A program made the translations under genes and the position numbers. This document shows, piece by piece, positions 51,241 through 55,721 of a DNA stretch of 64,000 nt. Each line of letters starts with the position of its first letter. Position 1 is the stretch's first letter. Origin of the DNA: Rhodanobacter thiooxydans (GTDB taxonomy: Bacteria; Pseudomonadota; Gammaproteobacteria; Xanthomonadales; Rhodanobacteraceae); assembly GCF_021545845.1 (NCBI RefSeq), contig NZ_CP088923.1, positions 1,178,001 through 1,242,000 of the forward strand. Reading direction: 5' to 3'. Below the pieces are notes generated by a model. The model was not told the origin of the DNA, searched no databases, and worked only from the letters and a program-made list of their open reading frames with translations.

Positions 51241-51660
51241 TCAGGCCATGTCGCCCAGTGCCTTGGTGAAGCGGTTCGCGTGCGAGCGCTCGGCCTTGGC
51301 CAGCGTCTCGAACCAGTCGGCAATTTCCTCGAAGCCTTCGTCGCGCGCGGCCTTGGCCATGCCCGGGTACATGTCGGTGTACTCGTGGGTTTCGCCGGCG
51401 ATGGCGCTCTTCAGGTTCAGCTGGGTGCCGCCGAACGGCAGGCCGGTGGCGGGGTCGCCCACCGCTTCGAGGTATTCCAGGTGGCCGTGGGCGTGGCCGG
51501 TTTCGCCTTCGGCGGTGGAGCGGAACACCGCGGAAACGTCGTTGTAGCCCTCGACGTCGGCCTTGGCGGCGAAGTACAGGTAGCGGCGGTTGGCCATCGA
51601 CTCGCCGGCAAAGGCGTCTTTCAGGTTCTGCTCGGTGCGCGATCCTTTCAAGTTGCTCAT
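51241..51660 (-). CDS. Rubrerythrin (diiron domain only)
   Basis: 139-residue ferritin-like diiron peroxidase. Metal-ligand helices are visible: [57 protein letters not shown] and [18 protein letters not shown]. It lacks the C-terminal rubredoxin domain of classical rubrerythrin, so electrons must come from another protein, plausibly the adjacent Fe-S protein. 128 bp downstream of oxyR on the same strand. Confidence 0.93.
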
Positions 51661-51788
51661 GACATCACCTCGTGGCGTTGGGCTGGGAGGGGTTGTGACT
51701 GGCGGTCTTGACGGCTGCTCTGGCCGAGCCTAGCGCCGGCCTGGCGCGCAATGAAATTGATTGTCTGGATCGCACGGATAGCTTGCAG

Positions 51789-52742
51789 CTATCGGCGCGC
51801 CGCCTTGCGCGGCGCTGGCGCCGGCGTGGTGGCGGTGTGCGCATCGAGCAGGTCCGCCGGCAATTGCCGGAATACGTCCGCCAGCCGCCGCAGGAATCCG
51901 TCCATGGCCGAGCTCTTGCGCCAGACCATGGCGATGCGCCGGCTCGGTGGGTGGCCGCGGAACTCGATCAGGTGCAGGTTCTCCACCGGCGCCACCGGCG
52001 GCTTCACCGCGGTGACCGGCAGCAGGGTGATGCCCACGTTCGCCGCCACCATCTGCCGCAGCGTCTCCAGGCTGGTGGCGCGGAAGCCGCTGTGCTCGCC
52101 GGCGCCGGTCAGGTGGCAGACCTCCAGCGCCTGGTCGCGCAGGCAGTGGCCGTCTTCCAGCAGCAGCAGGTTCTGGCTGGACAGGTCGCCCAGCTTCAGC
52201 TGGCCCTGGTGCTGCGCCAGCGGGTGCGCGTCCGACACCGCCAGCAGGAACGGTTCCTCGAACAGGAACTCGCTGTGCAGGCTGTCCTCGTGCAGCGGCA
52301 GCGCGAGGATGCCGGCATCCAGCTTGCCTTCGCGCAACATGCGCAGCACCACTTCGGTCTTCTCCTCTACCAGCAACAGCTCCAGCCGGGGGAACGCCTC
52401 GCGCACCAGCGGCAGCGCGTGCGGCAGCAGGTACGGACCTAACGTCGGAAAGATGCCCAGGCGCACCGTGCCGGATTCCGGGTCCAGCGTGCGGCGGGCC
52501 ACGCCGCGGATCTGCTCGATCTCGTTGAGCACGTCGCGCGCCCGCGTGGCGATGTCGCGGCCGACCTCGGTCAGCAGCACCTTGCGCGGGGTGCGTTCGA
52601 CCAGCGACACGCCCAGTTCGTCCTCCAGCTTCTTGATCTGGGTGGACAGGGTGGGCTGGCTGACGAAGCAGGCTTCGGCGGCGCGGCCGAAATGCCGGTG
52701 CTCGGCCAGGGCCACCAGATATTGCAGATCGCGCAGGTTCAT
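51789..52742 (-). CDS. oxyR: Hydrogen-peroxide sensor OxyR
   Basis: 317-residue LysR-family activator. N-terminal helix-turn-helix (HRHFGRAAEACFVSQPTLST). The redox pair Cys200 and Cys209 sits in GHCLRDQALEVC, matching C199/C208 of E. coli OxyR, so peroxide sensing is expected. The start at 52742 is 18 bp from a tandem OxyR-type site, indicating autoregulation. The open frame continues far upstream only as antisense of the aminopeptidase gene. Confidence 0.97.
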   Translation of the reverse strand: MNLRDLQYLVALAEHRHFGRAAEACFVSQPTLSTQIKKLEDELGVSLVERTPRKVLLTEVGRDIATRARDVLNEIEQIRGVARRTLDPESGTVRLGIFPTLGPYLLPHALPLVREAFPRLELLLVEEKTEVVLRMLREGKLDAGILALPLHEDSLHSEFLFEEPFLLAVSDAHPLAQHQGQLKLGDLSSQNLLLLEDGHCLRDQALEVCHLTGAGEHSGFRATSLETLRQMVAANVGITLLPVTAVKPPVAPVENLHLIEFRGHPPSRRIAMVWRKSSAMDGFLRRLADVFRQLPADLLDAHTATTPAPAPRKAARR

Positions 52743-52759
52743 GACGGGTCCGGCAGGCA

Positions 52760-52796
52760 ATAGACGTACGCTATGACATGGATGGTAACAATCAAT
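52760..52796. promoter_or_regulatory. Tandem OxyR binding site
   Basis: ATAG-N7-CTAT at 52760-52774, then 7 bases, then ATGG-N7-CAAT at 52782-52796. OxyR tetramers are known to contact four ATAGxt elements spaced by 7 bp; the first dimer site is perfect in its tetranucleotides and the second is in exact register with two mismatches. It lies between oxyR and the divergent small-RNA promoter. Confidence 0.8.
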
Positions 52797-52825
52797 TGGA
52801 ACGATGCAAGGGCGTGACCTATCCT
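52796..52825 (+). promoter_or_regulatory. Promoter divergent from oxyR
   Basis: TTGGAA (52796-52801), 18-bp spacer, TATCCT (52820-52825). The OxyR site abuts the -35, the geometry of an OxyR-activated promoter. Predicted start near 52832. Confidence 0.55.
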
Positions 52826-52831
52826 GCATGC

Positions 52832-52938
52832 ACGTTCTGCAACACCCCGCGCGTCGGAGTCCCCTCCCTCCAGCTCCCCCGCAGGCGCGCGGGTTTCCCC
52901 CGACCGGCGACAAGGCCTGCCTTGCCGCCGGTTTTTTT
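52832..52938 (+). ncRNA. Candidate OxyR-linked small RNA (about 105 nt)
   Basis: No ORF. A stem CCCGCGCG (52846-52853) / CGCGCGGG (52886-52893) closes a pyrimidine-rich loop with CCCCTCCCTCC and GCTCCCCC, complementary to Shine-Dalgarno sequences. A terminator stem and T7 follow. Position divergent from oxyR, the adjoining OxyR site and the length recall E. coli OxyS (109 nt), but I see no sequence similarity to OxyS. An alternative is a terminated leader of the aminopeptidase gene. The 102 bp from 52939 to the aminopeptidase start hold no other feature. Confidence 0.5.
52903..52938 (+). terminator. Intrinsic terminator upstream of the aminopeptidase gene
   Basis: Stem ACCGGCGACAAGG / CCTTGCCGCCGGT (12 of 13 paired) with CCTG loop, followed by seven T. 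It faces the plus strand, yet the next gene is downstream and the previous one is on the other strand, so it must end a short unannotated transcript. Confidence 0.88.
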
Positions 52939-53039
52939 CGTCTCGTGATCCGGCCGGTGGCCGCCATGCCTTCCGGCACTGGGTCAAAGGTCATGACGGC
53001 CCTAGCTTGGGTTTCCCCTCGCAAACCAGAGATGTTTTC

Positions 53040-55721
53040 ATGCGCCGTTTCGCCCGTCCCCTTCTGCTCACCGCGCTGGCTGCCTGCTGCGGCGCCGCGT
53101 TCGCCGCCAGCGCCGACCAGGCGCCGCAGGGCCGGCTGCCCGGCTGGGCGGTGCCGCAGTCGTACCAGCTCGCGTTCAAGGTGGATCCGGCGCAGCAGGA
53201 CTTTTCCGGCACCACCACGATCAAGGTGAAGCTGAACCAGGCCTCCGACCATCTGTGGCTGGACGGTGCCGAATTGAAGGTGTCGAAGGTGACCGTCACC
53301 GACGCCGCCGGCAAGGCGCATGCCGGCAAGTACGTAGCGGTGGACCCGAAGGCCGGCGTGTCGCGGGTGGATTTCGGCAGCACGCTCGAGCCGCAGCAGC
53401 TGACCTTGAAGTTCGAGTACACCGCGCCGCTCAACCAGCAGTTGCAGGGCCTGTACAAGGTCACCGCGAAGGGCCAGCCGTACGCGATGACGCAGATGGA
53501 GCCGATCAGCGCGCGCTTCGCCTTCTCCGGTTTCGACGAGCCCGGCTTCAAGACCCCGTTCGACATCACCATCACCGTGCCCGAGCACGAGAACGTGGTG
53601 GCCAACACCCGTCAGGTGAAGGAGCAGCCGGCCGCCAAGGGCTGGAAAACCGTGACCTTCGCGCAGACCCAGCCGCTGCCGACCTACCTGGTGGCGTTCG
53701 CCGTGGGCCCGTGGGACATCGTCGACGGCCCGGACATCTCGCCCGACGCGTACCGCGCCGAGCCGCTCAAGCTGCGCGGCATCGCCGCCAAGGGCGAGGG
53801 GCATCGCATGCAGCACGTGCTGAGCGAGGCGCCGAGCATCATCCACGCACTGGAGAACTACTACGGCTTCGGCTATCCGTTCGGCAAGCTCGACCTGCTG
53901 GCGGCGCCGGACTTCGAGGCCGGCGCGATGGAGAACCCCGGGTTGGTGACGTTCCGCGACTGGCTGCTGCTGCTCGACAAGGATTCGCCCGCGCGCAACG
54001 TGCGCGGCTCGTTCAACGTCAACGCGCATGAGCTGGCGCACCAGTGGACCGGCGACACGGTCACCACCGAATGGTGGAACGACATCTGGCTCAACGAAGC
54101 CTTCGCCACCTGGATGCAGCAGAAGGTCACCATGCAGGTGCACCCGGAGTACCGCGCCGACCTGGACCGCGTGCGTGGTGCGCAGGGCGCGATGAGCAAC
54201 GACAGCCTGACCAGCGCGCGCAGCATCCGCCAGCCGATCACCGGCAACGGCGACATCATGACCGCGTTCGACGGCATCACCTACCAGAAGGGCGCCAGCG
54301 TCATCGGCATGTTCGAGAACTACGTGGGCGAGCCGACCTACCAGAAGGGCATGCGCGCGTACATCCAGCAGCAGAAGTTCGGCAACGCCACCGCCGACGA
54401 CCTGGTCTCGGCGATCGCCACCGCGGCCGACAAGGGTGACGCGTTCAAGCACGCGTTCAAGAGCTTCCTCGACCAGTCCGGCGTGCCCTACGTGGCGACC
54501 AGGCTCGAACAGAAAAACGGCAAGACCGTGCTGCGGCTGAGCCAGAGCCGCTACCTGCCGCTCGGCAGCCACGGCGACCCGCAGCGCATCTGGGGCGTGC
54601 CGGTATGCGTGCGCTACGGCACCAGCGGCGGCAGCAAGGTCGCCTGCGAAATGCTCGACCAGGCCACCGGCTCGATGGCGCTGCCCGGCGCCAGCACGCC
54701 GACCTGGGTGATGCCGAACGCGAACGCCAGCGGCTACTACCGCTTCAGCCTCGACCAGGCCGGGCTGGACAGCCTGATCAAGCAGGTCGGCAAGCTCAGC
54801 GATGCCGAGCAGCTGGCCTACGCCGACGCGATCAATGCCAGCTTCCGCCGCGGCGATCTGGACGCGGGCCAGGTGCTGGCGGCACTGCAGCCGCTGGCCG
54901 GCTCGAAGATCCGCGAAGTGGCCGTGGCGCCACTGGACACGGCCAGTGGCCTCTATCAGCGCATCGCCGTCACCGACGCCCAGCGCGAACGCCTGGCCGA
55001 CTGGGCCAAGGCCGCCTACCTGCCGCGGCTGGAGCAGCTCGGCTACCAGCGCAAGGCTGGCGAAGCCGAGGATGACGCGCTGCTGCGCAGTAGCCTGGCC
55101 AGCGCGCTGGCGCTCGACTTCAAGCTGCCGGAAGTGCGCGCGGCGCTGCTCAAGCAGGGCGAGGCGGCGCTCAAGCCGGAGGCGGATGGCCATCTGGACC
55201 TGGCCGCCGCCGACCCGGACCTGCTTGGCGACGCGCTGGGCGTGGCGGTGCAGCAGCACGGCAAGAGCGCGGTCGATGCGCTGGTTGCCGAATTGCCGAA
55301 GACCAGCGATGCGGCGCTGCGCAACGGCATCCTCGGTGGCCTCGCCAGCGTGGAAGATCCGGCGCTGGCCGAGCAGGTGCGCGACTTCGCGCTGACCAAG
55401 CCGGTCAAGGTCGGCGAAATGGCCATGTTGCTGCGCGGCGTCCGCGACACCAAGGCCCAGCGCGACGCGATGTGGTCGTGGTTCACCGCGCACTACCAGC
55501 AGATCCTCGATCGCACCGGCAGCTTCTCCGGCGGCCGCCTGCCGTCGCTGGCGGCTGCCGGCGGCTGCTCGGCAGCCGAGTACGACCGCCTGCAGGCGTT
55601 CTTCAAGACCCGCGAGCAGGACGCCGCCGGCATCGGCCGTGGCCTGGCGCAGACCGGCGAGTCGATCCAGCTGTGCAGCGCGCTGAAGGCGAAACAGGAC
55701 CCGGCCGCGATCCTGCGCTGA
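53040..55721 (+). CDS. M1-family zinc aminopeptidase, exported
   Basis: 893-residue peptidase removing N-terminal residues. The signal peptide ends near AAFAAS, indicating a periplasmic or secreted location, unlike cytoplasmic PepN. GAMENPGLVTF exopeptidase motif, zinc site HELAHQW with NEAF supplying the distal Glu, and an ERAP1-like C-terminal helical domain (about 560-890). I start at 53040 (MRRFARPLL), 33 bp inside the longer frame. Confidence 0.94.
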   Translation: MRRFARPLLLTALAACCGAAFAASADQAPQGRLPGWAVPQSYQLAFKVDPAQQDFSGTTTIKVKLNQASDHLWLDGAELKVSKVTVTDAAGKAHAGKYVAVDPKAGVSRVDFGSTLEPQQLTLKFEYTAPLNQQLQGLYKVTAKGQPYAMTQMEPISARFAFSGFDEPGFKTPFDITITVPEHENVVANTRQVKEQPAAKGWKTVTFAQTQPLPTYLVAFAVGPWDIVDGPDISPDAYRAEPLKLRGIAAKGEGHRMQHVLSEAPSIIHALENYYGFGYPFGKLDLLAAPDFEAGAMENPGLVTFRDWLLLLDKDSPARNVRGSFNVNAHELAHQWTGDTVTTEWWNDIWLNEAFATWMQQKVTMQVHPEYRADLDRVRGAQGAMSNDSLTSARSIRQPITGNGDIMTAFDGITYQKGASVIGMFENYVGEPTYQKGMRAYIQQQKFGNATADDLVSAIATAADKGDAFKHAFKSFLDQSGVPYVATRLEQKNGKTVLRLSQSRYLPLGSHGDPQRIWGVPVCVRYGTSGGSKVACEMLDQATGSMALPGASTPTWVMPNANASGYYRFSLDQAGLDSLIKQVGKLSDAEQLAYADAINASFRRGDLDAGQVLAALQPLAGSKIREVAVAPLDTASGLYQRIAVTDAQRERLADWAKAAYLPRLEQLGYQRKAGEAEDDALLRSSLASALALDFKLPEVRAALLKQGEAALKPEADGHLDLAAADPDLLGDALGVAVQQHGKSAVDALVAELPKTSDAALRNGILGGLASVEDPALAEQVRDFALTKPVKVGEMAMLLRGVRDTKAQRDAMWSWFTAHYQQILDRTGSFSGGRLPSLAAAGGCSAAEYDRLQAFFKTREQDAAGIGRGLAQTGESIQLCSALKAKQDPAAILR

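Follow-up and report, generated by a model that had tools for sequence, protein, structure and literature searches.

The window (the whole 64,000-nucleotide stretch of Rhodanobacter thiooxydans DNA that was analysed) contains oxyR and, divergent from it, a tandem OxyR-type site, a promoter and a predicted small RNA, with an aminopeptidase gene downstream of the RNA and about 300 nt from oxyR (Table 1). All of the elements which an earlier note on this DNA had read in positions 52760-52938 were found where it had placed them, and its interpretation is in part borne out at the level of sequence, where an OxyR-type site and a promoter, both pointing away from oxyR, are followed by a short predicted RNA that has C-rich loops, ends in a terminator and is conserved. 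The product of oxyR carries the cysteine motif GHCLRDQALEVC, which we take to be a hallmark of OxyR, and its best NCBIfam model is NF008361 (OxyR; E 6e-96), with a score of 321.3 bits that falls just below the cut-off of 329. A 141-aa reading frame which runs over the RNA was judged to be spurious rather than coding, because relatives differ in their loops and leaders by insertions and deletions whose lengths are not divisible by three.

Table 1. Features of the oxyR spacer and of the genes on either side of it, in window coordinates.
Feature	Position	Strand	Basis or remark
oxyR, LysR-type peroxide sensor with GHCLRDQALEVC cysteine motif	51789..52742	-	translation and NCBIfam
Tandem OxyR-type site, ATAG-N7-CTAT-N7-ATGG-N7-CAAT	52760..52796	+	sequence
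Promoter: TTGGAA, 18-nt spacer, TATCCT	52796..52825	+	-35 abuts the OxyR-type site
Predicted sRNA, 107 nt	52832..52938	+	start inferred from the -10, end taken as the T run
Hairpin 1, with two C-rich unpaired stretches: UCCCCUCC (52860-52867) and UCCCCC (52875-52880)	52846..52893	+	folding
Intrinsic terminator: 13-pair hairpin with one mismatch, then T7	52902..52938	+	folding
M1-type aminopeptidase gene, outside the RNA	53040..55721	+	NCBIfam pepN models match, below their cut-offs

The first dyad of the tandem site is exact and the second reads ATGG-N7-CAAT, giving two mismatches over the 16 consensus bases. Two tandem matches with three mismatches or fewer were found in the 64-kb window as compared with none in 100 shuffles, and in the 4.2-Mb genome the site beside oxyR is the only one with two mismatches or fewer. 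At three mismatches or fewer the genome holds three sites against two for a reversed control pattern, and this level alone is therefore not above background; both of the three-mismatch sites precede peroxide-defence genes, one of them the rubrerythrin gene that lies just past oxyR and the other a catalase gene (Pfam PF00199; site at G000:C1:3021987-3022023, L279), which speaks for a true OxyR motif. The promoter agrees with the consensus at 8 of 12 bases, a weak match, and a stretch homologous to it stands before ahpC in relatives. A generic promoter and terminator scan returned no promoter here and omitted the terminator, the latter probably on account of a mismatched position within the stem.

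The 107-nt RNA folds at -47.9 kcal/mol (z -4.6), with none of 200 shuffles folding as well, and the whole RNA consists of two hairpins, the first a stable hairpin holding the C-rich unpaired loops and the second the terminator. In order to follow this RNA through relatives, we drew upon 80 named oxyR loci, mostly from Rhodanobacter, Dyella, Luteibacter and their kin, and upon 233 genomes of the window's family, and built a covariance model, R1, from 28 of 31 core sequences (without L043, L095 and L106) representing both of the locus states described below. The alignment showed that 10 of 19 pairs had changed on both sides and that 94% of cells were paired, a share which dropped to 35-56% in slid controls. 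Four of five covariation measures beat all 500 shuffles, while the fifth (further pair types) was reached by 90 of the 500; these shuffles ignore kinship, so the covariation counts as support and not as proof. The longest pyrimidine run in the hairpin region measured 7-17 nt in all 31 core sequences; what the loop conserves across the family is a pyrimidine run rather than one sequence. R1 matches, covariation and segment identity (below) agree that stem and loop are conserved in relatives, one of the points on which the earlier proposal had hung.

In the window's own genome R1 found one RNA, at 77.7 bits, and the next full-length match reached 20.6 bits; scores of the 28 species in the model are not independent of it, since R1 was built from them, the window's row included. 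At E<=1e-4, 80 of the 233 family genomes matched, among them 36 of 45 from the same genus, with the other nine lacking the RNA. In a plain BLAST search with positions 52740-52960 as query, 33 of 197 family genomes gave a match, limited in some of them to the promoter part. Of 398 genomes sampled from the order, 55 matched R1, six of these from outside the window's family and only one of the six above 40 bits; strong R1 scores are confined almost only to that family. The exception (L183:1192-1272, genome G488, another family of the order) is a C-rich hairpin and terminator of 42.8 bits that follows an unrelated gene, and it was set aside as analogous and unrelated, although 3'-end hairpins of this kind may form a wider class. 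Of the weak matches outside the family, those in G451 (L184) and G405 (L188) were retrieved and showed no oxyR or ahpC nearby; the others came from G236, G314 and G493.

Two locus states account for the strong matches. In 35 of the 66 family genomes with a match of at least 40 bits, the RNA follows an ahpC-type gene on the same strand at a distance of 3-54 nt, a position that fits the 3'UTR of a coding gene with a common terminator; the window differs in that ahpC is absent, and it belongs with the other 31 genomes, in which there was no ahpC match at E<=1e-50. None of the 66 combined ahpC with an RNA located elsewhere. The 40-bit cut was set after the scores were known, and 16 of 82 family matches fall below it, made up of two adjacent to ahpC, four in genomes without ahpC and ten non-adjacent matches in ahpC-bearing genomes, all of these ten being below 40 bits. 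In every one of the 31 RNA-only genomes (30 retrieved plus the window) the RNA occupies the oxyR spacer, at a distance of 96-230 nt from the start of oxyR, and in all 19 examined genomes with both ahpC and the RNA, ahpC adjoins oxyR. At these examined loci ahpC is divergent from oxyR behind an OxyR-type site and ahpD comes after the RNA. A search of 21 of the 31 RNA-only genomes recovered no ahpD, which was found in three of three controls. The nearest AhpC-like protein in the window's genome is a distant peroxiredoxin with 39% identity. Two of the 31 RNA-only genomes (G212 and G224) are, however, less than 90% complete. While AhpD passes its NCBIfam cut-off, AhpC scores 150.9 of the 272 bits needed, so that "AhpC-type" is the safe wording. 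The earlier note had also reasoned that no gene upstream needs the terminator and that a short transcript is implied; the description is true of the window, but only because the gene in question, ahpC, is missing there.

Grouping the 80 oxyR loci by hand gave a finer division into states. Thirty loci had an AhpC-type gene divergent from oxyR, 16 of them with the RNA behind it (E<=1e-14) and mostly with an AhpD-type gene next; 14 had the RNA directly behind the promoter without ahpC, three had an enlarged RNA, and 33 had neither or could not be placed. In two Rhodanobacter MAGs (L044 and L045) the 3' region behind ahpC is different and longer and has no C-rich hairpin. Across ahpC-bearing genomes, 54 of 91 showed no match behind ahpC at E<=1e-4 (46 without any match and eight with a weak match elsewhere). 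Two of these 54 were examined and proved to have sub-threshold matches right behind ahpC, one of 22.6 bits (L189, genome G083) and one of 26.6 bits (L192, genome G196), which suggests that diverged forms of the RNA reach beyond the 80 of 233 genomes counted above.

The OxyR-type site follows the presence of the RNA or of ahpC. A strict tandem box was present in 27 of the 31 RNA-only loci (26 of the 30 retrieved, plus the window), the other four having looser or re-spaced OxyR-type sites, weakest in L180. We then compared the second dyad, with the first dyad required for scoring, across 30 ahpC loci (24 scorable), 15 RNA-only loci, three loci with enlarged RNA and 33 others (25 scorable). At least 6 of the 8 bases of the second dyad, with a 1-nt shift permitted, were retained in all 15 RNA-only loci, in 23 of 24 ahpC loci and in all three enlarged ones, as compared with only 3 of 25 loci without the RNA. 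These counts indicate that the activating half of the site has been kept where the RNA or ahpC has been kept; the first dyad may have a role in the control of oxyR itself.

The direction of change between the two states was approached through trees. On a gyrB tree of 58 of the 59 genomes searched (G214 has no whole gyrB) the RNA-only state is scattered, with at least six label changes forced by well-supported branches, and a single RNA-only clade was rejected (p-AU 1e-18). With the test restricted to the Rhodanobacter rows, a subset named after the tree was known, the p-AU of a single clade was 0.003. The oxyR tree forces only two changes of the RNA-only label on well-supported branches, and both the ahpC and the oxyR trees conflict with gyrB in places, so that a locus exchanged between lineages, or an ahpC regained in some of them, could give the appearance of loss on several occasions. 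Outgroup genera g13, g17 and g24 have oxyR-ahpC-ahpD without an RNA match at threshold, and G083, with its weak match right behind ahpC, is one of the outgroup genomes. The simplest reading of these sequences is that ahpC was lost and the RNA retained more than once.

Taken together, these results point to an sRNA gene that probably arose from the 3'UTR of an ahpC-type gene, with ahpC and ahpD lost and a putatively OxyR-driven RNA kept that would repress mRNAs with G-rich start regions. The broader proposition, that in several lineages of one family selection has kept the ahpC 3'UTR as an OxyR-driven sRNA while the flanking peroxide-defence genes were deleted, is one to which we incline only slightly. 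Under this scheme ahpC and ahpD would have disappeared from the window's lineage and from others while promoter, hairpin and terminator stayed in place. Peroxide would oxidise OxyR, the oxidised form would activate the promoter, and transcription from it would yield the former 3'UTR by itself, as a primary transcript that is about 107 nt long and stops at the terminator. The C-rich loops (UCCCCUCC and UCCCCC) would then most likely pair in trans with G-rich translation start regions, such that translation would be repressed under peroxide. In ahpC-bearing species the RNA might instead be released from the ahpC mRNA or act as its 3' end.

An alternative is that the strong terminator was kept after the loss of ahpC in order to shield the aminopeptidase gene from OxyR-driven transcription and that the RNA itself is inert. 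The arrangement in the window is compatible with this, in that the RNA ends in a terminator with the aminopeptidase gene next. Hairpin 1 and its loop, however, which are dispensable for termination, are better conserved than the terminator stem. In 12 of the 15 RNA-only rows, all Rhodanobacter, identity with gaps ignored was 95% in the 5' arm of hairpin 1, 84% in its loop and 84% in its 3' arm, as compared with 54% in the leader, 68% in the linker, 64% in the terminator stem and 68% in the spacer behind the terminator. The lead of the loop is small when gaps are counted as differences (67% against 62% for the terminator), the fall to 67% being due to a 5-nt indel. The terminator stem varies in sequence, yet 7 of its 12 aligned pairs have changed on both sides with pairing kept. 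Furthermore, the loci without the RNA have mostly lost the second OxyR dyad as well (22 of 25 scorable), and three loci of the Dyella group have enlarged the RNA to about 155 nt behind the same type of promoter. We therefore regard the insulator explanation as unlikely. The three enlarged RNAs (L050, L055 and L056, from Dyella ginsengisoli, Dyella lutea and a Lysobacterales MAG) lie on the minus strand upstream of oxyR without ahpC, consist of several C-rich hairpins and a terminator on an sX13-like plan, and score only 25-30 bits with R1. Two other loci, L039 and L080, have in their oxyR spacers RNA leaders longer than those of the other RNA-only rows; these long leaders may be scars of separate deletions.

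That hairpin 1 serves the ahpC mRNA alone, stabilising its 3' end or helping its release without any action in trans, with the RNA-only copies now in decay, we consider distinctly improbable. It would agree with the place of the RNA right behind ahpC in 35 of the 66 genomes and with the similar hairpin that follows an unrelated gene in G488. The RNA-only copies, on the other hand, are conserved and paired across species with scores of up to 92 bits; they have also kept their OxyR-type sites, the second dyad retaining 7 or 8 of its 8 bases in 15 of 15 loci.

The order of events might also be the reverse: from an ancestral RNA-only layout, later insertions would have placed ahpC on one side of the RNA and ahpD on the other, or exchange would have brought the two genes back. 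Unrooted change counts cannot separate gain from loss, and some exchange of the locus is visible, but the outgroup genera have oxyR-ahpC-ahpD without the RNA at threshold, or with the G083 match behind ahpC, and two insertions exactly flanking the RNA seem less likely than deletions, so that there is little to recommend this order. Proteins of the RsmA/CsrA type bind RNA according to a GGA rule. A decoy that sequesters such a protein through the GGAG of the hairpin loop, as might be imagined from the GGAG in many Rhodanobacter loops and from RsmU, an mRNA-derived RsmA-sequestering sRNA reported in Xanthomonas (PMC7694677), is very improbable, since the loop holds one GGA at most and the GGA is missing in Rhodanobacter L036, L046, L097, L099 and L104 and in the Dyella and Luteibacter rows, the C-rich run having been retained. 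None of the words ahpC, oxyR, ahpF and C-rich occurs in the RsmU paper.

OxyS of Escherichia coli is divergent from oxyR, has an OxyR site at its promoter and is about 110 nt long, with hairpins ending in an intrinsic terminator. The window RNA resembles it in each of these respects, the OxyR-type site being judged by sequence; it differs in having C-rich loops, in standing behind ahpC in relatives and in belonging to another bacterial order. Kinship with OxyS was not upheld: the OxyS covariance model (Rfam RF00035) gave no match at the gathering threshold over the whole window, nor even at E<=5 over 52600-53100, and homology was rejected on this ground. Because the RNA is the 3' end behind ahpC in relatives and ahpC and ahpD are gone here, the resemblance to the oxyR-oxyS layout would seem to have an independent origin. 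The Burkholderia anti-hemB RNA (RF02837) and Hrs13 (RF02631) likewise have a hairpin region followed by a GC-rich terminator, with a C-rich stretch in the alignment of the former, and their models scored far below gathering, at 16.2 bits against 49.5 and 15.6 against 52, respectively.

The repression step proposed above is modelled by analogy on sX13 of Xanthomonas. As reported (PMC3771888), sX13 adjoins polA, has three C-rich stem-loops, is Hfq-independent in Xanthomonas and acts through its C-rich loops (4C and 5C motifs) upon mRNAs with G-rich motifs near the start codon; repression of reporters required both the loops and the G-rich motifs. The window RNA is alike in being structured with C-rich loops and unlike in that its family is found at oxyR or behind ahpC and that, in the window, it has one C-rich hairpin plus terminator. 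By our own estimate, G-rich motifs of only 7-8 nt would turn up by chance near so many start codons that a genome-wide target prediction would be overwhelmed unless it drew on a comparative set. A reported example of an sRNA derived from a 3'UTR is that of glutamine synthetase (PMC9731577). As in such sRNAs, the RNA and the mRNA have a common 3' end and terminator in ahpC-bearing relatives; the window is unlike them in that it has no coding part, and the former 3'UTR stands directly behind the promoter. Among the titles listed in searches of open-licence papers, none dealt with the window RNA, with an ahpC-3'UTR sRNA, with OxyR control of an sRNA in Rhodanobacter, Dyella or Luteibacter, or with a 3'UTR sRNA that has outlasted its coding gene behind the same promoter.

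Within one family, then, some genomes have ahpC with an RNA tail, others have only the RNA behind that promoter, a few have it in enlarged form and still others have lost everything. If the interpretation is true, nature would here have provided the successive stages by which a 3'UTR turns into an sRNA gene of its own, with an independent origin of the OxyS-like layout. If the RNA is expressed and active, OxyR would control another sRNA that is divergent from oxyR, the second of its kind and independent of the first, and the step from 3'UTR to stand-alone sRNA would be testable in soil bacteria; a comparison of targets between ahpC-bearing and RNA-only species would tell whether the job of the RNA preceded the loss of its host gene.

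Just beyond oxyR, at 51241-51660 on the minus strand, lies the rubrerythrin gene (Pfam PF02915), with an OxyR-type dyad upstream of it at 51756-51792. Rubrerythrin may supply peroxide reduction where ahpC has been lost. A strict dyad was located 117-143 nt before this gene in 26 of the 33 examined oxyR loci that hold it.
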